Origin: a candidate division FCPU426 bacterium
GTDB taxonomy: Bacteria > Oederibacteriota > JAAXVQ01 > JAUVAV01
Assembly (NCBI GenBank): GCA_016929575.1
Contig: JAFGIQ010000188.1
Location: 1-32,314 of the forward strand
DNA: 32,314 bases
Direction of reading: 5' to 3'
Positions 2,008 through 29,903 of the stretch are shown here, piece by piece. Position 1 is the stretch's first letter; each line of letters begins with the position of its first letter. A program made the translations under genes and the position numbers. Under the pieces are notes generated by a model. It saw nothing but the letters and a program-made list of their open reading frames with translations. It searched no databases and had not been told where the DNA came from.

Positions 2008-5000
2008 CTAATCCCCTTTGCGGATATAGGCCCCATGCAACTCAAGCGGCCGGGTAGTATGCAATTCAATGGCAGCCACGGGATGATGCATCCATTCCCA
2101 CTGGACACTGATGCGCACTAAATAATCGCGGAGTGCTTCACCTGGTTTGGTTGTAAATGAAATTTGGTTGGATAGGTTTTCCCCGTATCGGACGGTCACC
2201 ACCCCTGTTTCCCGGGTTTTTATACGCAGATGCAAATAGTTGCCCGTGGTTTTGTCAATAGCGGGATTAAACGCCAACCGGTGCCTTTCGTTGTCCGCCA
2301 GCCGTACCGCGCGGGTCAGCGGCTGATCCAATATGGCTGTCTTTTTAGCCGCCTGATGATCATCGTACCTCCCCCAGAGGTACGGCAGCAATTGAAGGTC
2401 CAGCGGAGGTTGCTCATATGAAACAATGGGCGTGAAATCTATCCCTTGGTATATGACTTCTATGTGTTTAAGTGTCAAAATGGATCCTGGCGGCGGATCA
2501 AAACGGACATCCCTTAATAAAGCCTGCTCGGCTTTTAATGGCAGCGGTATCTCCACCCAGGCCTCCTCGGTTGCCTGTAAGGCGACTTTGGAACTGTATT
2601 GTTCCTGGAAATGCTCCTGATTCCAGGCATAAAATACCTGCAGCGCTCCGGCCCGGGAACACGCGTATTGGACCTTTAGAAAATAATTTGTATCCGGCCG
2701 TATTGGCCCCAGTGGGGATAATTCTAAAAACCATGACAGCCATGGATCCTGTTTGCCGTTTTGAATAGTCATGCCTTTTCCGTCAATCCGCACAGCATCA
2801 TGCCACTTTGCATTTTCCAGATGCATGCCGACGGGCACGGATACCGGCAGGGACGCCAATGCCGACAGATCGGCGCAGGCGTGATCATTCGCCTCCCAGA
2901 CTTCATATATCCCGATTTTTACCAGCGGATGATAATGGAGGTAAATAAATTCCGCAATACGGTAGGCGCCGATTTCCGTGGCAAAACCGTCCCAGCTGGA
3001 CCCCCACCAATCCGCGCGAAACACCACATAGGGGATAACGCCGTTCTTATAGTGTTTTTCGAACTGTTTGATATATATCTGCTGGGTGGTATCTGAATTG
3101 CAAAGCACGGTCAGGTGATGAAAAAACAGGTTTTTTTTATCAAGCAAAGCATAAAGCAAATGCCCGTTGGTGAATTCAAAAATGGTCTGCCGGGGAAGGG
3201 TGGCGCTGTCAATAAACGCCTTTAATTCCAGGTGTTTCTCCGGCGTGATATATCTCCGGGGTTTGAGCAACCAATGCTTCCATTGAAAGGATTTTTCAAC
3301 ACCAAGAACACTACTGGCCGGAAAAACAAAAAGATAGGCCAGAAAAATACTTAAAAACAATGCCAAACTGCTCTCTCGTTTCATTTTTACCCAAAAAAAC
3401 GGGGCCAAAAGCATTAAGAGGATGAAAAAATACGTGTAATAGTCTTCAAAAAGACAATGCCGGCCAAAAGCGCGATAAAAGATGACCAGTGTTGACAGCG
3501 CAACAAAGGTAATGATGTAATCCCGGACGGCAAGGTCGTCGCCGCGCAACCCCTTGATGATAAACCGCATGACGTAGGCCATGCCGGCCAGAGGAAAAAT
3601 CAAATATTGAAAAACCGCCTGGGTATCGTATTGCTTCACCATTTTTGCATAACTGCCGTACAAGCTGTCGGCTTGAGAAGCGGCAAGGATCAGTTTCGCT
3701 TGGTCTACGAGGGAGTGGCCTTTAAGCCAAACCAGCAATGCATACACTATTGCCGAAGTGCCCATGACCAAGAGAAAAGACCTGATTGCCGGCCCAAGCG
3801 CCGCCCGCTGGTTATGCCCCAGATGGCAGGCGATCACCAGTACCAGGGCCGAAGGCAGACACATGACACCCACTGCCGGCATCCACAGAAAAGCCGCCAG
3901 GAGGCTCGCCCACAGCAATAGCCCGCGTTGAAACCCTGGCCGCTGCGCATAGTAACCCATCAGCAAGGCGGGCAGAAAAGCGAAGCTGTAATAATCGTAA
4001 AGCATGTTGCCATAGGGAGTAAAAAGGACAACAAACAAACCAATCCAGGGATTAAGCAGCTTGCTCAATAGAAAATAAATAAGAACGCCGCTCATGACCG
4101 CCAAAAGCGGCCACTGCCAGAGAATCATATCCACATTGACATCCCGGTTGAGCGCAATATAGAACAGCTGGCCCAGCAGGTCATATAATCCGCGGGCATA
4201 CCACACATCAACAAAGGGTGTGGCGCCAAACCGGACGAGTTGGTGTGCGGGCACCACTGCATTGCCGACATGCAGGAGATCCGTGCTGATATCCTGATGC
4301 GTGAGAAGATGGGTGTGGGTGCTGAAATAGATGAGGGTGATAATGAGCAGAGGAAAATAATAGTACTGCAGGTAATGCCTCACTCTATGATGCGATCTGC
4401 CTTTGGCCCCCCACCGCCAAGCCGTCCATAACACCAGCAGGCCTCCCATGCCAAAAGCCAATTGTTGTGGCGCAATATCGATCCATGCCGAAAGCGTGTA
4501 TTGCATTTCATTGCTGATGGGGACAATAATGGGGATGGCCATGAAAGGCATCAGGGTCCATGCCAGGCGCCGCAGGGTGTGCCCGTTCAAGGAGATGATT
4601 TTCAACCGGCAAGATAAGGCATATACCATCCCATATGACAAAACCATGAACAGCAGGTGCAAATCCCAGGCAATGGGCAGCACTTGGGCTTTGCCGCTCT
4701 TTAGCAAGCAGAATATGAATACAACCGTGCTGCCCAGTAAATAGAAGAGCACGGGCAGATGATAATATGCAAAGCAGGTGCGCAGGGCGTGGTTGCGCAG
4801 GCGATGGGCCATATATTTGAGGACCGACCAGATACACACCAGCAACAACATATAACCGACAGCGGTAAAGCCTTGTAATACTTTGTCTTTTTCCTCCAAT
4901 ACGTGCACCAACAGTAAAAATACGGCGAAAGCGGAGAGCAAGAAAATAAAATACTTTTCGGGTTTAAATTTATAGGCCAAATGTTGCAGATATAGTTTTT

Positions 5001-5295
5001 GCTGGCAGGCAGTCAGCACAATCAATGTCGCCATAAACGACACGGCAAACAAGCACATCATTTGCGTATACAGTTCAGTGCGAACAACCGGATTGACGCC
5101 GTAAAAAACAGCCGTGCCAATAACACGGTCCGCAAAGGACTGCAAGGAGGCGTCGGTCAATCGAAACCATTTCATGCGCAAGGCGACTACAGTGAGGCTG
5201 GCCAGCAGGCTTAAAACAACATTCCAACCTTCCAACTGACGCAAATTGTTCTTTATTCCTTCGGCCGTGCGCGTCATCCAGTTTTTGCTTTGCAT
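2008..5295 (-). CDS. Very large polytopic membrane protein, GT-C glycosyltransferase-like
   Basis: I place the start at the ATG ending at 5295 because GGAGG lies 6 nt upstream. The frame is open 23 codons further, but that stretch is Arg-rich without a ribosome site. The product has 1095 residues. Residues about 25-660 contain some 14-16 hydrophobic segments. Residues 661-1095 are soluble and, at the end, rich in alternating beta-type pattern, perhaps a jelly-roll. A segment at about 351-372 (HQLVRFGATPFVDVWYARGL) resembles the G-x2-P(Y/F)xD loop after the first luminal acid in GT39/GT83-type lipid-linked sugar transferases. Inference: an envelope glycosyltransferase or polysaccharide-assembly protein using a polyprenyl-linked donor. 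I do not recognise the family exactly. It lies 112 bp downstream of a small membrane protein on the same strand, probably co-transcribed. Confidence 0.6.
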   Translation of the reverse strand: MQSKNWMTRTAEGIKNNLRQLEGWNVVLSLLASLTVVALRMKWFRLTDASLQSFADRVIGTAVFYGVNPVVRTELYTQMMCLFAVSFMATLIVLTACQQKLYLQHLAYKFKPEKYFIFLLSAFAVFLLLVHVLEEKDKVLQGFTAVGYMLLLVCIWSVLKYMAHRLRNHALRTCFAYYHLPVLFYLLGSTVVFIFCLLKSGKAQVLPIAWDLHLLFMVLSYGMVYALSCRLKIISLNGHTLRRLAWTLMPFMAIPIIVPISNEMQYTLSAWIDIAPQQLAFGMGGLLVLWTAWRWGAKGRSHHRVRHYLQYYYFPLLIITLIYFSTHTHLLTHQDISTDLLHVGNAVVPAHQLVRFGATPFVDVWYARGLYDLLGQLFYIALNRDVNVDMILWQWPLLAVMSGVLIYFLLSKLLNPWIGLFVVLFTPYGNMLYDYYSFAFLPALLMGYYAQRPGFQRGLLLWASLLAAFLWMPAVGVMCLPSALVLVIACHLGHNQRAALGPAIRSFLLVMGTSAIVYALLVWLKGHSLVDQAKLILAASQADSLYGSYAKMVKQYDTQAVFQYLIFPLAGMAYVMRFIIKGLRGDDLAVRDYIITFVALSTLVIFYRAFGRHCLFEDYYTYFFILLMLLAPFFWVKMKRESSLALFLSIFLAYLFVFPASSVLGVEKSFQWKHWLLKPRRYITPEKHLELKAFIDSATLPRQTIFEFTNGHLLYALLDKKNLFFHHLTVLCNSDTTQQIYIKQFEKHYKNGVIPYVVFRADWWGSSWDGFATEIGAYRIAEFIYLHYHPLVKIGIYEVWEANDHACADLSALASLPVSVPVGMHLENAKWHDAVRIDGKGMTIQNGKQDPWLSWFLELSPLGPIRPDTNYFLKVQYACSRAGALQVFYAWNQEHFQEQYSSKVALQATEEAWVEIPLPLKAEQALLRDVRFDPPPGSILTLKHIEVIYQGIDFTPIVSYEQPPLDLQLLPYLWGRYDDHQAAKKTAILDQPLTRAVRLADNERHRLAFNPAIDKTTGNYLHLRIKTRETGVVTVRYGENLSNQISFTTKPGEALRDYLVRISVQWEWMHHPVAAIELHTTRPLELHGAYIRKGD

Positions 5296-5407
5296 GGTCT
5301 GCCTCCGCCACGGCCGTTGGCGTTGCCTTCGCCCGCCAACACCTTTCGCCGCCGTCATCTGCAATCAGCCCCGCAAATCCTCTCCGGGGTGTTGATGACA
5401 AACACTG

Positions 5408-7971: not shown

Positions 7972-8103
7972 TTCACACCCTGACCCCAATTTCCATCTCC
8001 AAGCCGGGAGCGATTGACCGGCGCATTTTATGTCCTGGCGGCATTGCCCTGCGTGGATTCCCGATTGGCAATCATCGCCTATGGGCCTCTTCGGTTTTTC
8101 CAG

Positions 8104-8133
8104 TTGGCTTTTGCCGGCCTGATCGCGTATGAT
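8104..8133 (+). promoter_or_regulatory. Candidate promoter of polX
   Basis: TTGGCT (8104-8109), an 18-bp spacer and TATGAT (8128-8133) predict a start near 8140, 24 nt above the polX ATG, with GAAGGA (8151-8156) as the ribosome site. The -35 is only moderate. Confidence 0.5.
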
Positions 8134-8163
8134 AAAGACACTTTCCGTCCGAAGGATTTTATC

Positions 8164-9882
8164 ATGCCTGTCAGCAACCATGACATCGCCGTTCTTTTCG
8201 AACGCATGGCGGTTTTCCTGGAATTGGATGGCGCGAATGCTTTTCGCATACGTGCGTACCAAAACGCCGGCCGCATCATCGAGGGATTGACCCGCAATCT
8301 TGCGGAGGCAGTGCTACAAGGCGAGGATGTGACCCGGTTTGCCGGGATTGGAAAAGACCTGGCCGGAAAAATCAGGGAAATTGTCGCCAGCGGCACTTTT
8401 CAACAGCTGGCAGAGCTGGAAGCGCGGCTGCCAAAGATCCTTTTGGAAATGATCTCCATTCCCGGTCTGGGGCCAAAACGGGCGCGCAGGGTATGGGAAA
8501 ATTTATCCATCCACTCCATCCCCGACTTAAAAGCCGCTGCTGAAAATGGCAAAATCAGGACCCTGCCCGGATTTGGAGCCAAGCTGGAAGAACAGATTCA
8601 AAAAGGCATTGCCTTCCGCGAATCACAGTATAACCGCATACTCTGGTCCGAGGCGGAAATAATCGCCCGGAGCCTTTGCGCCTATTTGGAAAACATACCC
8701 GGTGTGCAAAAGGTTGAGGTTGCCGGCAGCTATCGCCGCAAAAAAGAAACAGTGGGCGATCTTGATATTTTGGCTGTCTGCTCGCAAGCCGAAGCAGTAA
8801 ACCGCGCCTTCCGGAGCTATCCGGGAGTGTCTGAAATTTTAGCTCAGGGCGGCACCAAATCTTCGGTCATTTTACACGGGGGAATGCAAATCGACCTGCG
8901 CGTAATCGCCAAAGAAAGCTATGGCGCCGCGTTGCATTATTTTACGGGTTCCCAGTCGCACAACATTGCCATACGCAAAATGGCGCAGCAAAGAAGAATA
9001 AAAATCAATGAATACGGCGTTTTTAAAAACCAACTTCACGTCGCCGGCAAAACCGAGGAAGAAGTCTTCCGGCAGGTCGGCCTTCCCTATATTCCTCCCG
9101 AACTGCGGGAGATGACCGGTGAAATAGAAGCTGCACAAGCCGGCAGACTGCCGCAGCTGGCATCCCGCGAGCAGCTGCGCGGCGATCTGCACTGTCATAC
9201 GGACGAAACCGACGGCGCGCTCTCTTTGCCTGAAATTGCGGCTGCAGCCCATGAGCTCGGCTATGAGTATATCGGCATCACCGACCATTCCCAGCATGTA
9301 TCCGTAGCCATGGGTTTGGATGAAAAAAGACTGCGGCAACAACTTTTGGCCATCGACAAAACAAATGCCAAACTCAAAAATATCACCCTGCTCAAAGGCA
9401 TCGAAGTGGACATCCTGGATAACGGACGGCTCGATTTGCCTGACAGCATCTTGAAAGAATTGGACTTTACGGTCTGCTCCATTCATTCCAAATTCAATCT
9501 CCCCGAAGACCAGCAAACAGAACGTATCCTGCGGGCCATGGACAATCCGTATTTTACCATCCTGGGGCACCCCACGGGCCGTTTGCTCGGTTCGCGCCCG
9601 GCGTATGCTGTCCATATGGAAAGGATCATCCTCAAGGCCGCGGAATGCGGGTGTTTTTTGGAATTAAATGCCCATCCTGAACGCCTGGACTTGTCGGATA
9701 TGCACTGCCGGCTGGCGAAGGAGAAAAATGTCTTGGTTGCCGTTTCCTCGGATGCCCACAATCGTGTTGGCCTGGAGAATGTTCGTTTTGGCATCAACCA
9801 GGCCAGGCGGGGTTGGTTGGAGGCCAAAGATATACTCAATACGCGTCCTTTAAAGGTATTGCGCCGGCTGCTGCGCAGGTGA
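8164..9882 (+). CDS. polX: DNA polymerase X family with PHP domain
   Basis: The product has 572 residues, close to the roughly 570 of Bacillus PolX. Domains in order: 8-kDa-type helix-hairpin-helix region (about 1-150, with GIGKDLAGKI, IPGLGPKRA and LPGFGAK); nucleotidyltransferase palm with GSYRR (188-192), Asp199 and Asp201 (GDLDI) and Asp244 (QIDLRV); and a C-terminal PHP domain with DLHCHT (341-346), Glu414, His441, GHP (468-470) and SDAH (529-532). All three palm aspartates and the PHP metal ligands are present, so both gap-filling polymerase and 3'-5' exonuclease activity are plausible. The ATG at 8164 is chosen because GAAGGA lies 7 nt upstream and the family starts here; an in-frame 50-codon extension upstream covers the promoter. 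The gene is divergent from rtcB and monocistronic. Confidence 0.93.
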   Translation: MPVSNHDIAVLFERMAVFLELDGANAFRIRAYQNAGRIIEGLTRNLAEAVLQGEDVTRFAGIGKDLAGKIREIVASGTFQQLAELEARLPKILLEMISIPGLGPKRARRVWENLSIHSIPDLKAAAENGKIRTLPGFGAKLEEQIQKGIAFRESQYNRILWSEAEIIARSLCAYLENIPGVQKVEVAGSYRRKKETVGDLDILAVCSQAEAVNRAFRSYPGVSEILAQGGTKSSVILHGGMQIDLRVIAKESYGAALHYFTGSQSHNIAIRKMAQQRRIKINEYGVFKNQLHVAGKTEEEVFRQVGLPYIPPELREMTGEIEAAQAGRLPQLASREQLRGDLHCHTDETDGALSLPEIAAAAHELGYEYIGITDHSQHVSVAMGLDEKRLRQQLLAIDKTNAKLKNITLLKGIEVDILDNGRLDLPDSILKELDFTVCSIHSKFNLPEDQQTERILRAMDNPYFTILGHPTGRLLGSRPAYAVHMERIILKAAECGCFLELNAHPERLDLSDMHCRLAKEKNVLVAVSSDAHNRVGLENVRFGINQARRGWLEAKDILNTRPLKVLRRLLRR

Positions 9883-24211: not shown

Positions 24212-24832
24212 ATGTTACGCGCCACCACCCCCGCAGATTTCGAGGAAATGTATCTCATCATCAATGACGCCGCCCAGGCCTATCGCCACCAGATCCCCGC
24301 GGATTGTTGGCATGACCCCTACATGTCCAGGGAAGCCCTGCGCCGGGAAATGGACAGTGGCGTGGTGTTTTGGGGATGGGAGGAAAACGGCATGCTGTTG
24401 GGGGTCATGGGTATCCAGGACGTGCAGGATGTCACCCTGATCAGGCATGCCTATGTGCGCACTGTCCACCGCCACCGCGGCATCGGCGGGCTTTTGCTGC
24501 GGCACCTTCTGCATATCACCACCCGCCCGGTGTTGGTCGGCACCTGGGCCGCTGCTTCCTGGGCCATTCGTTTTTATGAAAAAAACGGTTTTCAGCTGGT
24601 TTCCGCAGAGGAAAAAAACCGTCTGCTGCGCAAATACTGGTCCATCTCCGAGCGCCAGATTGAAACCTCGGTGGTATTGAAAGAATCAGGGGGCGTATTT
24701 GCAATAAAAAAGGCGCTTGGAAGCGCCTTTGGGGATTTCATCTTTTTGACTTGGGGCCTGAGTTTCTTGATAAATCATCTAACCCTCACTCCGTCCCCAA
24801 TCAATTACTTTTCCCTCCCACAGGTCGCTTAA
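24212..24832 (+). CDS. GNAT-family N-acetyltransferase with C-terminal extension
   Basis: The 206-residue protein has the acetyl-CoA motif HRHRGIGGLLLRHLL (86-100; R/Q-x2-G-x-G type) and the beta5 to alpha4 segment AIRFYEKNGFQLV (118-130). The substrate is unknown. The canonical domain ends near residue 158. The remaining ~47 residues are encoded by DNA that forms the opposite-strand terminator (24703-24730) and the 3' end of the ATPase gene (54-nt overlap), so the tail probably arose from loss of an earlier stop when that cassette arrived. AAGGA lies 6 nt before the ATG; probably co-transcribed with murB. Confidence 0.85.
   Translation: MLRATTPADFEEMYLIINDAAQAYRHQIPADCWHDPYMSREALRREMDSGVVFWGWEENGMLLGVMGIQDVQDVTLIRHAYVRTVHRHRGIGGLLLRHLLHITTRPVLVGTWAAASWAIRFYEKNGFQLVSAEEKNRLLRKYWSISERQIETSVVLKESGGVFAIKKALGSAFGDFIFLTWGLSFLINHLTLTPSPINYFSLPQVA
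24703..24730 (-). terminator. Intrinsic terminator of the ATPase gene
   Basis: AAAGGCGC and GCGCCTTT pair perfectly (24709-24730, loop of about 6 nt), followed on the minus strand by TTTTTTATT. It lies 49 nt beyond the ATPase stop and inside the GNAT frame on the other strand. Confidence 0.75.
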
Positions 24833-25936
24833 AAATTCCCTCCACGGCACGACTGAAATATTGCCATGTTTCCAGGCGCGCGCTTCCATGCAGACCAGCA
24901 GATATTTCTTCAGGCGTTTTTCCTCCTTGAGCGCCTGCAATCCCTTCAAGTCGCGCTCGCTGACGTGCTTTTTGGCTTTTACTTCAATGGCGACCTCGTC
25001 TCCCAGCACAAAATCCACCTCAAAGCCGGATTGCGAACGCCAGTAATGCAAACTGTCTATTTGGAGGTAATCACAATATGTTTTCAGCTCATGGGCAAGG
25101 TAGGTTTCAAAAGCCGCGCCATATTCCGGTGACCCGGGCGAAACCATTTGCCGGTGCTGAAAATAATTCGCCAACCCTACATCAAAAAAATAATACTTTG
25201 GCGCCCTGATGGGCTTTCGTTTCACCGAAGCCCCCCAGCCTGATATTTCAAAAGCCAGCAGGGTGTCTTTCAGAATCTGAAAATACTCTTGCACGGTCCG
25301 CCTGGGCACCTGTGCGTCGCTCGCAATTTTGGAATAATTCGCCATCTGGCTGTTGCACAAGGCAGCGACTTCCAAAAACCGGCTGAAAGCCGGAATATTC
25401 CTGACCAGTCCTTCGGCAGCTATTTCCTGTGCCAGGTAATCCCCGGCATAGGCCTTCAAATCCTCCCGGGGGGAATCGGAAAAGAACACTGCCGGCAGCA
25501 GGCCGTAAGCCAGCGCTCTGTCCAGGTGGAAATGTTTTCCCAACTCAACCTGGGAAAATGGATGCAATATCCTTGCTCGCGCCCGCCCACCCAACAAATT
25601 GACCCCTCCGCGCCTCAGTTTTCGGGCCGAGGACCCGGTCAACAAAAACCGCACACTGCGTTTTTCTATCAGCCGGTGGACTTGGTCCAGCACGCCCGGC
25701 ACTTTCTGAATCTCGTCTATGACCACCACCCGGTCCGAGGGCCTCAGTTCCGCTTCCAGGCGCGAGGGATTCCGGGTGAATTGCAGAAAGGTTTCCCCGT
25801 CCAAAAGGTCGTACACCCGGTCGGCCTTGATTTGATGCGCAATCAGCCAGGATTTTCCGGTTTGCCTCGGCCCCCACAAAAAGCATGATTTTTTCATCAA
25901 GATGGAATTCAGGTCCAAATAGCGCTTAATCTGCAT
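24779..25936 (-). CDS. AAA_14 / DUF4143 ATPase
   Basis: The 385-residue protein has an AAA_14 N-terminal ATPase domain with Walker A GPRQTGKS (22-29), Walker B VVVIDEIQK (70-78) and the sensor-like FLLTGSSARKL. The C-terminal DUF4143 part includes a PD-(D/E)xK-like motif, EVDFVLGDEVAIEVKAKK. Such proteins are widespread, patchily distributed and often found in multiple mobile-looking copies; no cellular role is established. The ATG at 25936 follows GGGGGTGA at 6 nt. It has its own near-consensus promoter and operator-like palindrome (25953-25998) and its own terminator, forming a self-contained cassette between polC and murB. Confidence 0.92.
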   Translation of the reverse strand: MQIKRYLDLNSILMKKSCFLWGPRQTGKSWLIAHQIKADRVYDLLDGETFLQFTRNPSRLEAELRPSDRVVVIDEIQKVPGVLDQVHRLIEKRSVRFLLTGSSARKLRRGGVNLLGGRARARILHPFSQVELGKHFHLDRALAYGLLPAVFFSDSPREDLKAYAGDYLAQEIAAEGLVRNIPAFSRFLEVAALCNSQMANYSKIASDAQVPRRTVQEYFQILKDTLLAFEISGWGASVKRKPIRAPKYYFFDVGLANYFQHRQMVSPGSPEYGAAFETYLAHELKTYCDYLQIDSLHYWRSQSGFEVDFVLGDEVAIEVKAKKHVSERDLKGLQALKEEKRLKKYLLVCMEARAWKHGNISVVPWREFLSDLWEGKVIDWGRSEG

Positions 25937-26156: not shown

Positions 26157-29100
26157 TCACCCAAAAAGCGAGGTCTGATCGGCCTTGGGCAGGATGTCCA
26201 GGCAGCGGTGCAGGGTCATGATTTCGATGACATTCTTGTTTGCCCCTGTGCGTTGGGCCAGTTCCTCCACCGAGCGGAAGGGGCGCGCCACGCGTTCTTC
26301 TGAAATGCGCAGGGCGCAGGTCAATCCCAGCCCGGTCAGTGAAATCAAAGGCGGCAGGAGCTCTTTTTCACCCACCAATGTAAACAATTCCTGGTGGGAA
26401 TCAGACAGGGAAACCGGCAGAAAGGTGATGCCCCGGGCAAAAGCCTCGCGCACCACTTCCAAAACCGTCAGACTGTTTTTATCCTTGGCGGTCAAGTCCT
26501 GGCGGTTTTTCAATTCCTGAATGCGCTCCTGCACCCGCCGCGGACCCCCGCGCACCACCAGCTCGGCGTTAAAAAACTCGGCGTTCAGGGAGAAATAATT
26601 GGTGTAAAACGCCGCCGGAAAATGCACCTTGAAGTAGGCAATGCGAAAAGCCATGATGCAATAGGCCACGGCGTGCGCCTTGGGAAAAATGTATTTAATC
26701 TTTTTGCAGGAGGCGATGTACCAGGCAGGGACATTGTGCTCCCGCATGGCAGCCTCCTGCTCCGGATTCAACCCCTTGCCCTTGCGCACGGATTCCATGA
26801 TCTGAAAAGCCTGTTCCGGATCCATGCCCTTGCTGTTGAGGTAATTCATGATGTCATCGCGGGCGGAAATGACGGTTGACAGGGTGACGGTCTTGTCCTT
26901 GATTAACTCCGCGGCATTATTCAGCCATACGTCCGTGCCGTGGGACAGGCCGGAAATCCTCACCAGTTCGGAAAACACCGTTGGCCGCGTTGCCTCCAGC
27001 ATCTGGCGGACAAACTCGGTTCCGAATTCAGGAATACCCAGGGTGCCGATGGCAGTCCCGATGTCCCCCTGCACGCGGAGGGTTTCCAGTCCGGAAAATA
27101 TTTTCAGCGTATCCGGATCATCCAGGGGGATGGAACGCACATTGACGCCGGTCATGTCGCCCAAGCGGCGCAGGGAGGTGGGATCGTCATGTCCCAGTAT
27201 ATCCAGTTTGAGCAGGGAATCATGAATAGCATGGTAATCCAGATGCGTGGTGGTTATCTCCGAGTCGCGGTCATCCGCCGGCCGTTGTACGGGCGTAAAA
27301 TCGTGAATCTCCATGTCCGCCGGCACGATCATAATGCCGCCCGGGTGCTGCCCGGTGGTTTTTTTCACGCCGGCGCATCCGCGGGTCAGACGGTTTACTT
27401 CCGCTTCCCGGACGACCAGTTTGTTCTCCTCGAGATATTTTTTCACAAAACCGTAGGCAATACGGTCCGCCACGGTGGAAATGGTGCCGGCACGGAAAAT
27501 ATGGCCGGCATCGAAGATTTCCTCCAGGGCTTTGTGCGCCTTGGCCTGGTATTCCCCTGAAAAATTCAAATCAATATCAGGCAGCTTGTTTCCGTTAAAG
27601 CCCATGAAAACCTCAAAGGGAATGTCAAAGCCTATTTTTTCCATCATGGTCTGGCAACGGGGGCAGGCTTTGTCTGCGATGTCCGCACCAATGCACCCGT
27701 TTTCAGCCAGCTCAAAACAGCGGCACTGCGGGCATAAATAATGTCCAGGCAAGGGATTGACTTCCGTGATACCCAGCATGGTTGCAGTCAGGGAAGATCC
27801 TACGGATCCCCGGGACCCGACCAGATAGCCATCATCGATGGATTTATGCACCAGCCGGCGGGCGATTAAAAACAGGGAAGCGAAATGATTCTCATTAATG
27901 CCCTTGATCTCCCGGGCCAGGCGCTGGGCCACCAGTTCAGGCAGGGGGTCCCCGTACATCATCCGGGCGCGCTCCAATGCCCGGCGTTCCAATTCCCTCT
28001 CCGCCTCAGGCAGTTTGGGCGGATAAAATTTCTGTTTCAGGGGTTCGATATCCCCTATTTGCGCGGCAATACGCCGCGGTGCTTCCACCACGACCTCATA
28101 GGCTTCCTTTTCCCCCAAATAAGCGAACTCCTCCAGCATCTCCTGGGTGGTTTTAAAAAACAAGGGGGCCTGTTGGGCCGCATCCTCGTAACCCATCCCG
28201 GCCTGTAAAATGGACCGGTAAATCTCGTCGCCGGGCTCGAGAAAATGCACATCACCCGTGGCGACCACCGGTATCCGGTTTTTTCTTCCTATTGCCAGAA
28301 TACGGCGGTTGATGTCCAACAAGGCCTCTTCGTCGCGGCATTGCCCTTCACGGATGAGAAAGTGGTTGTTCTCGCGGGGCATGATTTCCAGGTAGTCATA
28401 GCGGCGGACAATTTCCGCCAGGGTCTCATCGTCGGCGCCCCGCAAAATATGCTGAATGACTTCACCCTGCTCACAGGCGGACCCCAGCAGCAGGCCTTCG
28501 CGGTGATGGTTTAGGCTGGAACGTAAAATGCGGGGATGCCGGTAGAAATGGTTTAAGTGCGCCTCTGAAACCAGGTGATAGAGGTTGCGGATGCCTTGCG
28601 GTTTGGCTATCAATATGCTGATATGGTATGGCCGCGGCGGTTTCTTTCCGACCTGCTCTTTGGCCCACGCATCTTCAATTAAATACCCCTCCATGCCGTA
28701 GAGGACTTTACACCCGTGCTTTTTGGCCGCAGCCATCGCCTCGGGATAAGCCTGGACCACGCCGTGATCTGTTATGGCGATGGCCTCATGTCCGAAGGCC
28801 GCGGCCTGTTTGATCAAATCCGAGACGCTGACCATGGCGTCCATGGCGCTCATTTGTGTATGCGCATGAAGCTCAATGCGTTTTTGGGGAGCCATATCCC
28901 GGCGGCTTGATTTTTCTCCCAGGGAAATATCTTTCAGAAACAAGCACAAATCTTGTGTGTATTTGTCGTATTGTATTGATCCGCGCAAGCGGGCATAAGC
29001 GCTTTTTTTCACTTCCGGCGACAGTTGTCTCCCCGCATCCACAAACAACCGGGCATTGATGGTGCTGGTTTTGTCGTAGATGTCCATTAAAACCAGCTGC

Positions 29101-29903
29101 CGGCCCGTACGGAGGGTCTTGCACTCAAATGCAATCAGTTCCCCCTCCACCACCACATTGGTTTCTTCCTCCTTGATGGCGGCTATGGGCGTGGGGACGG
29201 CGGATATTTTCCGGCCATACACAACACGCCAACGCGGTTGCTTGGACGCTTCGGTCTGCGGCGCGTGTATTCCCCCCGGCTCCTCGTTTTCCTGCTGGAT
29301 CCTCTCCAACTCTTCACGAATGCGCTTGCGGTAGAGCGCTTCACGTTCCCGGACCTCTTGTGTGAATTCCCCGATCTCAAACCGCACCTGTACTGGCATG
29401 TTCAGCCGTTCGCTGAGCAGGCGCCCCATGATTTTGTCCGCATCCTGGCGCTGCAGCGCCACGAGTGACATTTCGTTGGCCAAAGCAATACGGACCCGGT
29501 TCTCCCCGCCGCTGTTTGTAAACCGCACCAAGGACAGGTAGGCGCCGGCCATGTGCACAGTCCGCGAAAAAACACCCAGCAGGTCCGTCCAGTGTTCCTG
29601 CACGTATTCCAGCGCCGACATGACCCCGGCGGAATAATGCACATCCCACAGCATCTGTACTTTGCCGCTTTCGGTCAGCTGTACTTCCAGCAGGGTCCGC
29701 AATTTTTCCAGCAATTCGCGGGGCAGGCGTTTATCGGAGTCCAGCCGCACAATCAGCGCTGCCGGCCGGCAGGAAAGATGCACAGAACGGGGGACGGCGG
29801 CAAGGAAGTCTTTTTTGGTGTCCGGTGCCAGCTCTAATTTTTCAATGAGTTCCCGCAGACGGGGCGATATTCCTTTTGGTTCCAAAATGATTTCTGGAGA
29901 CAT
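26157..29903 (-). CDS. polC: PolC-type DNA polymerase III alpha subunit lacking the exonuclease domain
   Basis: The 1248-residue replicative polymerase is shorter than typical PolC (about 1430-1450). Order: N-terminal domain (about 1-235), OB domain (about 245-330), PHP domain with ELHAHTQMSAMDAM (344-357), AITDHG (376-381), GMEG (403-406), GSACEQGE (474-481) and TGDVHF (549-554). Zinc-type Cys pairs follow at CPQC and CPRC (724-750), then palm Asp776 and Asp778 (LPDIDLNFSGEYQ) and Asp901 (LDILGHDD), and the C-terminal tail. In PolC the DEDD 3'-5' exonuclease is inserted in the PHP domain. Here GMEGYLIEDAW (403-413) runs directly into PPRPYHISIL (422-431) with no FDxET-type motif. All PHP ligands remain, so PHP proofreading or a separate exonuclease is possible. 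Start has GGAG 7 nt upstream. Confidence 0.95.
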   Translation of the reverse strand: MSPEIILEPKGISPRLRELIEKLELAPDTKKDFLAAVPRSVHLSCRPAALIVRLDSDKRLPRELLEKLRTLLEVQLTESGKVQMLWDVHYSAGVMSALEYVQEHWTDLLGVFSRTVHMAGAYLSLVRFTNSGGENRVRIALANEMSLVALQRQDADKIMGRLLSERLNMPVQVRFEIGEFTQEVREREALYRKRIREELERIQQENEEPGGIHAPQTEASKQPRWRVVYGRKISAVPTPIAAIKEEETNVVVEGELIAFECKTLRTGRQLVLMDIYDKTSTINARLFVDAGRQLSPEVKKSAYARLRGSIQYDKYTQDLCLFLKDISLGEKSSRRDMAPQKRIELHAHTQMSAMDAMVSVSDLIKQAAAFGHEAIAITDHGVVQAYPEAMAAAKKHGCKVLYGMEGYLIEDAWAKEQVGKKPPRPYHISILIAKPQGIRNLYHLVSEAHLNHFYRHPRILRSSLNHHREGLLLGSACEQGEVIQHILRGADDETLAEIVRRYDYLEIMPRENNHFLIREGQCRDEEALLDINRRILAIGRKNRIPVVATGDVHFLEPGDEIYRSILQAGMGYEDAAQQAPLFFKTTQEMLEEFAYLGEKEAYEVVVEAPRRIAAQIGDIEPLKQKFYPPKLPEAERELERRALERARMMYGDPLPELVAQRLAREIKGINENHFASLFLIARRLVHKSIDDGYLVGSRGSVGSSLTATMLGITEVNPLPGHYLCPQCRCFELAENGCIGADIADKACPRCQTMMEKIGFDIPFEVFMGFNGNKLPDIDLNFSGEYQAKAHKALEEIFDAGHIFRAGTISTVADRIAYGFVKKYLEENKLVVREAEVNRLTRGCAGVKKTTGQHPGGIMIVPADMEIHDFTPVQRPADDRDSEITTTHLDYHAIHDSLLKLDILGHDDPTSLRRLGDMTGVNVRSIPLDDPDTLKIFSGLETLRVQGDIGTAIGTLGIPEFGTEFVRQMLEATRPTVFSELVRISGLSHGTDVWLNNAAELIKDKTVTLSTVISARDDIMNYLNSKGMDPEQAFQIMESVRKGKGLNPEQEAAMREHNVPAWYIASCKKIKYIFPKAHAVAYCIMAFRIAYFKVHFPAAFYTNYFSLNAEFFNAELVVRGGPRRVQERIQELKNRQDLTAKDKNSLTVLEVVREAFARGITFLPVSLSDSHQELFTLVGEKELLPPLISLTGLGLTCALRISEERVARPFRSVEELAQRTGANKNVIEIMTLHRCLDILPKADQTSLFG

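Follow-up and report, generated by a model that had tools for sequence, protein, structure and literature searches.

An Exonuclease-Free PolC-Type DNA Polymerase III in Candidate Division FCPU426 with a Predicted PHP Proofreading Site

What removes misincorporated nucleotides when a PolC-type replicase is without the exonuclease that is its hallmark? The question is raised by a polC gene found in a 32,314-nucleotide stretch of DNA from a candidate division FCPU426 bacterium, here called the window. The DEDD-type 3'-5' exonuclease (Exo) of PolC is inserted in a loop beside the PHP metal site (PMC5636811), and the window PolC passes through this loop with no such insertion. We examined the domain organization of the protein, its distribution, the state of its PHP site, and the possible origins of the form.

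Domain organization of the window PolC

The window gene encodes a protein of 1248 residues that scored 1409 bits against the NCBIfam equivalog PRK00448 (cut-off 873) and 1280 bits against TIGR01405 (cut-off 1043). The G. kaustophilus PolC of structure 3F2B aligned to residues 241–1247 with 1097 bits. PolC and DnaE were separated by a branch with support of 100 in a DnaE-rooted tree, and the window protein fell on the PolC side. It has the N-terminal OB-fold and the complete polymerase core with Asp triad of a PolC-type alpha subunit and lacks the DEDD Exo within the PHP domain, corresponding to the variant of Timinskas et al. (2013), in which the core is without the Exo insertion. The features identified are as follows.

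26157–29903, minus strand: polC, 1248 residues, PolC-type DNA polymerase III alpha subunit without Exo (open reading frame, NCBIfam models, 3F2B alignment)
28959–29156, minus strand: OB-fold N-terminal to the PHP domain, residues 250–315 (PF01336, E=3e-4, under the gathering score; the 3F2B alignment begins at residue 241)
28677–28874, minus strand: first part of the PHP domain, residues 344–409, with ligands H346, H348, D355, H380 and E405 (PF02811, ligand columns)
28629–28676, minus strand: 16-residue loop EDAWAKEQVGKKPPRP, residues 410–425, at the Exo insertion site (spacing, alignment)
28245–28628, minus strand: second part of the PHP domain, with ligands H427, C477, D551 and H553 (ligand columns, 3F2B alignment)
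27192–27995, minus strand: polymerase core (palm/thumb), residues 637–904, with catalytic D776, D778 and D901 (PF07733)
27654–27734, minus strand: zinc-type Cys pairs CPQC (724–727) and CPRC (747–750) (sequence)
26757–27182, minus strand: fingers domain, residues 908–1049 (PF17657)
26190–26432, minus strand: tandem HhH, residues 1158–1238 (PF14579)
26163–26177, minus strand: C-terminal QTSLF, a probable clamp-binding motif (sequence compared with the published PolC consensus QL[S/D]LF; PMC3919608)

An earlier reading of the sequence alone had placed the missing exonuclease at positions 28,629–28,676, and residues 410–425 map exactly there. Pfam analysis detected no RNase_T domain at this site or anywhere else in the 1248 residues, and the PHP domain was recovered as a single uninterrupted unit (residues 344–502; PF02811). 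At the position of EDAWAKEQVGKKPPRP in the window PolC, Exo-containing PolCs carry a stretch of some 200 residues that includes the motifs DxETTG and HNxxFD. The spacing from the PHP Glu to the PHP His across the site is 21 residues in the window PolC and 205–236 residues in 71 Exo-containing PolCs; it is 10–25 residues in DnaE and 12–39 in the Exo-less relatives of the window PolC, with one clostridial Exo-less PolC having a low-complexity spacing of 84. Exo-sized intermediates were not seen among the sequences compared, nor was a decaying or remnant Exo seen among 71 Exo-less PolC sequences. The palm Asp triad, which is invariant across all aligned PolCs, the two zinc-type Cys pairs (C724/C727 and C747/C750) and all nine PHP ligands are present, in line with the earlier reading, which had judged the triad, the Cys pairs and every PHP ligand that it could locate to be intact. 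Together with the DnaE-like spacing, this upholds the description of the site as a clean absence and not decay.

Comparison with the canonical Exo-containing PolC (Bacillus type; 3F2B, 9QPC) shows a common set of OB, PHP, palm/thumb, zinc motif, fingers, HhH and clamp motif, the differences being the lack of the DEDD Exo in the window PolC and its complete PHP ligand set, with Asp551 in place of Asn. The Exo of 3F2B was removed at the corresponding position by engineering, which left a linker of the GSGS type, whereas the window PolC is without Exo naturally. The GSGS-type linker in the 3F2B sequence aligns at the 16-residue loop of the window PolC. That the G. kaustophilus PolC folds and crystallises with its Exo engineered out counts in favor of an Exo-less architecture. 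An AlphaFold2 model of residues 225–1248, based on 10 sequences only, was poor (pLDDT 58.6, pTM 0.39).

Distribution in FCPU426 and in Clostridia

The source genome is a metagenome-assembled genome (MAG) of 327 contigs and 87% completeness, but an assembly deletion or contamination is a negligible explanation for the Exo-less protein and was rejected, because every scorable PolC of the phylum has the same architecture, repeated in independent MAGs of 13 families, because murB, nusA and infB lie near polC in relatives also, and because the PolC and the DnaE of the window's genome each group with the phylum. We surveyed 45 FCPU426 genomes from 16 families, a few of the genomes carrying PolC as contig-edge fragments, and found no Exo-containing PolC. 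PolC was present in 13 of the families and missing from three (f3, f4 and f5), and most of the closest named relatives of the window PolC carry the title candidate division FCPU426. The FCPU426 PolCs formed one clade (support 99) in a PolC tree from which the Exo columns had been removed. FCPU426 was likewise one clade (96) in the DnaE tree, within which the families lacking PolC fall at two separate positions, so that, most simply, PolC is old in the phylum and has been lost at least twice. The Exo-less form would then also be old, and was probably already present in the ancestor of the phylum. The polC gene lies near nusA-infB in FCPU426, and likewise in Clostridia and Mollicutes. In the window, a gene for an AAA_14/DUF4143 ATPase (24779–25936, minus strand) lies between polC and murB, whereas murB directly follows polC in two relatives (L005, L006).

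The earlier reading had known of no description of such a PolC. This part of the reading fails, since the form is not rare and was published in 2013. Timinskas et al. reported that PolCs without the Exo insertion made up 6% of PolCs and 16% of PolC + DnaE1 systems among complete genomes, all of them from Clostridia and Negativicutes except for one extra copy in Thermotogae (PMC3919608). The window PolC thus extends a known architecture to a further phylum. It shares with the published form the absence of Exo from the PHP domain and a DnaE1 partner, and with the 41 sampled clostridial Exo-less PolCs an intact PHP site. It lies outside the published range, in a separate FCPU426 clade, and differs further in that FCPU426 yielded no Exo-containing PolC at all and the window's order no stand-alone RNase_T. 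Searching the literature for PolC and FCPU426 jointly brought up no relevant paper, and the phylum-wide occurrence of Exo-less PolC outside the Firmicutes appears to be new.

For an estimate of frequency, an even draw of 120 species (at least 90% complete) was made from the phylum of the clostridial genome G051, which was the search centre and itself contributed one of the Exo-less PolCs. PolC scored over the cut-off in 92 of the 120; 32 of these contained Exo, 56 were Exo-less, and 4 were cut by contig ends. The Exo-less share is therefore 56 of 88 classifiable PolCs (L086–L125), compared to the published 16% for PolC + DnaE1 systems. In the phylum to which the Mollicutes genome G056 belongs, all 61 PolCs keep Exo. 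The Exo-less share among the PolCs sampled directly from these phyla is reason to revise how common the form is considered to be.

The PHP metal site and candidate proofreaders

All nine metal ligands expected of a PHP-proofreading replicase are found in the window PolC. None of the nine is changed in any of the 70 scorable Exo-less PolCs (29 from FCPU426, including the window, and 41 from Clostridia), and the full set is kept by 61 of 71 Exo-containing PolCs. The 10 broken sites, all in Exo-containing enzymes, belong without exception to the Bacilli/Mollicutes portion of the tree. Shared ancestry may therefore account for the association of Exo absence with an intact PHP site, and an independent-pairs test of the Exo and PHP states had no power. 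In the G. kaustophilus PolC, one of the nine PHP residues is changed and PHP exonuclease activity is absent (PMC5636811, Nat Commun 2017), and the residue aligned with D551 of the window PolC is Asn in that protein. The DnaE1 polymerases of M. tuberculosis and Thermus have an active PHP exonuclease (PMC5636811). These share with the window PolC a complete nine-residue metal site and a short, uninterrupted adjoining loop; the window PolC differs from them in its PolC domain order, with an N-terminal OB, and its PHP activity is a prediction.

We also searched for other proofreaders. No RNase_T (DnaQ-fold) match was obtained by profile search of the window's genome (87% complete), while the same search gave matches in 10 of 14 control genomes. 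RNase_T was likewise absent from the matches in 8 of 8 genomes of the window's order, four of which are 96–99% complete, and in at least 15 Exo-less Clostridia of at least 90% completeness. Note that such a search could miss an exonuclease too divergent for PF00929 or PF01612. The only PF01612 match in the window's genome is a separate ORF of 411 residues, judged by its size to be RNase D-like. A second alpha subunit, which the sequence-only reading had thought worth seeking in the genome, is present: the main DnaE (contig C287) keeps all nine PHP ligands and groups with FCPU426 DnaEs next to clostridial DnaE, as expected of a DnaE1 and not a DnaE3 partner. That reading had offered either the PHP domain or a separate DnaQ-like exonuclease as proofreader, and the PHP alternative is the better supported, because a DnaQ was not found in the genome or order while the PHP site is intact in both polymerases. 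The retention of all nine PHP ligands in every scorable Exo-less PolC appears to be new, as does an order lacking a detectable RNase_T gene.

Several minor observations concern other genes of these genomes. Second, shorter DnaE-like ORFs of 1025 residues in the window's genome (G000:C169, L168) and of 1040 residues in a further genome (G016:C41, L219) have broken PHP sites and are possibly DnaE2/ImuC-like. The window encodes a PolX-type DNA polymerase (8014–9882, plus strand) with its own PHP domain at residues 391–554, a possible further PHP nuclease. It also contains an ORF of 1118 residues (2008–5364, minus strand) with no Pfam or NCBIfam match at E<=0.001.

Based on these comparisons, we consider it fairly probable that the window PolC is a natural Exo-less replicase acting in a PolC + DnaE1 system of FCPU426 and proofread by PHP. 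Such an enzyme would polymerise like other PolCs and carry out bulk synthesis, and its PHP domain is predicted to be an active 3'-5' exonuclease. Mismatched 3' ends would probably be removed by the three-metal PHP sites of PolC and of the partner DnaE1, this being likely because no DnaQ-fold RNase_T was found in the protein or in the genome.

A rather unlikely alternative is that DnaE1 replicates the genome and PolC is an accessory or low-fidelity enzyme for special occasions that needs no proofreader, a view of PolC beside DnaE1 that has been raised for Clostridia (PMC3919608). It would fit with the completeness of DnaE1 and its intact PHP site, and with the three FCPU426 families that live without PolC; however, retention of the PHP ligands in 70 of 70 Exo-less PolCs is not predicted by relaxed fidelity, and the position of polC near nusA-infB and the conservation of a clamp-like motif also argue against it.

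We regard it as improbable that a stand-alone DnaQ-like exonuclease proofreads for the window PolC in trans, given the lack of RNase_T matches in its own genome, in the 8 genomes of its order, and in the Exo-less Clostridia described above, but such an arrangement would fit other lineages. In families f9 and f10 (G022–G030), between two and six PHP ligands have been lost from the scored DnaEs. Each of these genomes encodes a single stand-alone RNase_T, which in several lies on the contig of dnaE, about 10 kb from that gene (L156–L159, L213–L215, L220), as if a DnaQ-like subunit had replaced proofreading by the DnaE PHP domain. Some Exo-less Clostridia have stand-alone PolC-type Exo ORFs: G102 and G140 (L225, L226) each encode an Exo-less PolC and a separate ORF of about 200 residues that scores about 220 bits against a model of the embedded Exo, and is perhaps an Exo domain freed from PolC. 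Families f4 and f5 (G003–G011; L173–L175, L221) have no PolC and an intact DnaE PHP site, together with one stand-alone PolC-type Exo of about 190–275 residues that scores up to 195 bits against the PolC model. In family f8 (G021; 89% complete), the DnaE PHP site is broken and no RNase_T was found.

The window's order would be of experimental use. Proofreading by the PolC PHP domain is hard to test because the usual DEDD exonuclease would mask it. In this order PolC has no Exo, its PHP site is intact and RNase_T genes are not detectable, which makes its enzymes, each with one proofreader by nature, suitable for a clean test.

Primitive state or loss of the exonuclease

The sequence-only reading had left the Exo-less form as either ancestral or derived, and the tree data narrow this choice. 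Placing all Exo-less PolCs in one clade was rejected (AU p=1.6e-4, 245 lnL), and with it a single ancestral relic for all of them, so that the Clostridia switched Exo state many times regardless of the origin of the FCPU426 form; the Exo was lost (or gained) repeatedly in that group. At least nine changes of Exo state are required on the best PolC tree, at least five of them on starred branches. A primitive state of FCPU426 alone, on the other hand, would fit some of the accepted root placements but not all.

The position of the root was examined by attaching the outgroup to each of 97 branches with the ingroup tree fixed. In the DnaE-rooted tree FCPU426 is deepest and all Firmicutes PolCs form one clade (100), with a very long outgroup branch (2.97 + 2.97 changes per column); when the tree is drawn with a midpoint root, FCPU426 is nested inside the clostridial PolCs (support 83). 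Neither placement was secure after the root test. The best roots lie inside FCPU426 or on its stem, most within 1.9 lnL, many branches within Clostridia are also accepted, and so is the branch leading to Bacilli/Mollicutes together with three clostridial PolCs (2.75 lnL, AU 0.24); branches inside Bacilli are rejected. With one gain only, the Exo distribution takes 10 losses under an FCPU426 root and 11 under a Bacilli root.

The Exo domains provide a second line of evidence. Embedded Exo domains mostly track the core tree, the core topology costing 88 lnL compared to about 700 for shuffled trees, although a strict fit to that topology is rejected by the Exo data. Embedded Exo domains as one clade gave p=0.055, and stand-alone PolC-type Exos intermix with the embedded ones.

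We tentatively lean toward a derived loss, in which Exo was cleanly deleted before FCPU426 diversified, possibly with a clostridial donor of the gene. This would accord with the nesting in clostridial PolCs, with the tracking of the core tree by embedded Exos, and with the repeated occurrence of Exo-less and Exo-containing PolCs as close sisters (for example L115 with L082/L084, support 100); the nesting, however, is weakly supported and depends on the midpoint root, a decaying Exo was seen in 0 of 71 Exo-less sequences, and the Exo data reject the exact core topology. It is possible, though doubtful, that FCPU426 instead predates the Exo insertion and that Exo was gained later in Firmicutes. 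The depth of FCPU426 in the DnaE-rooted tree, the best root placements, the DnaE-length PHP loop of the window PolC and the Firmicutes-like location of polC near nusA-infB are all consistent with this primitive state, but the outgroup branch is very long, roots in Clostridia and on the Bacilli/Mollicutes stem survive, the Clostridia changed Exo state many times anyway, and an FCPU426 root saves one loss only. A fuller scenario, a little more doubtful again, is that FCPU426 keeps a PolC that never had Exo, PolC having begun as a PHP-proofread enzyme into which the DEDD domain was inserted in Firmicutes and from which it was then often lost. Both a derived loss and a primitive state are compatible with proofreading by PHP.
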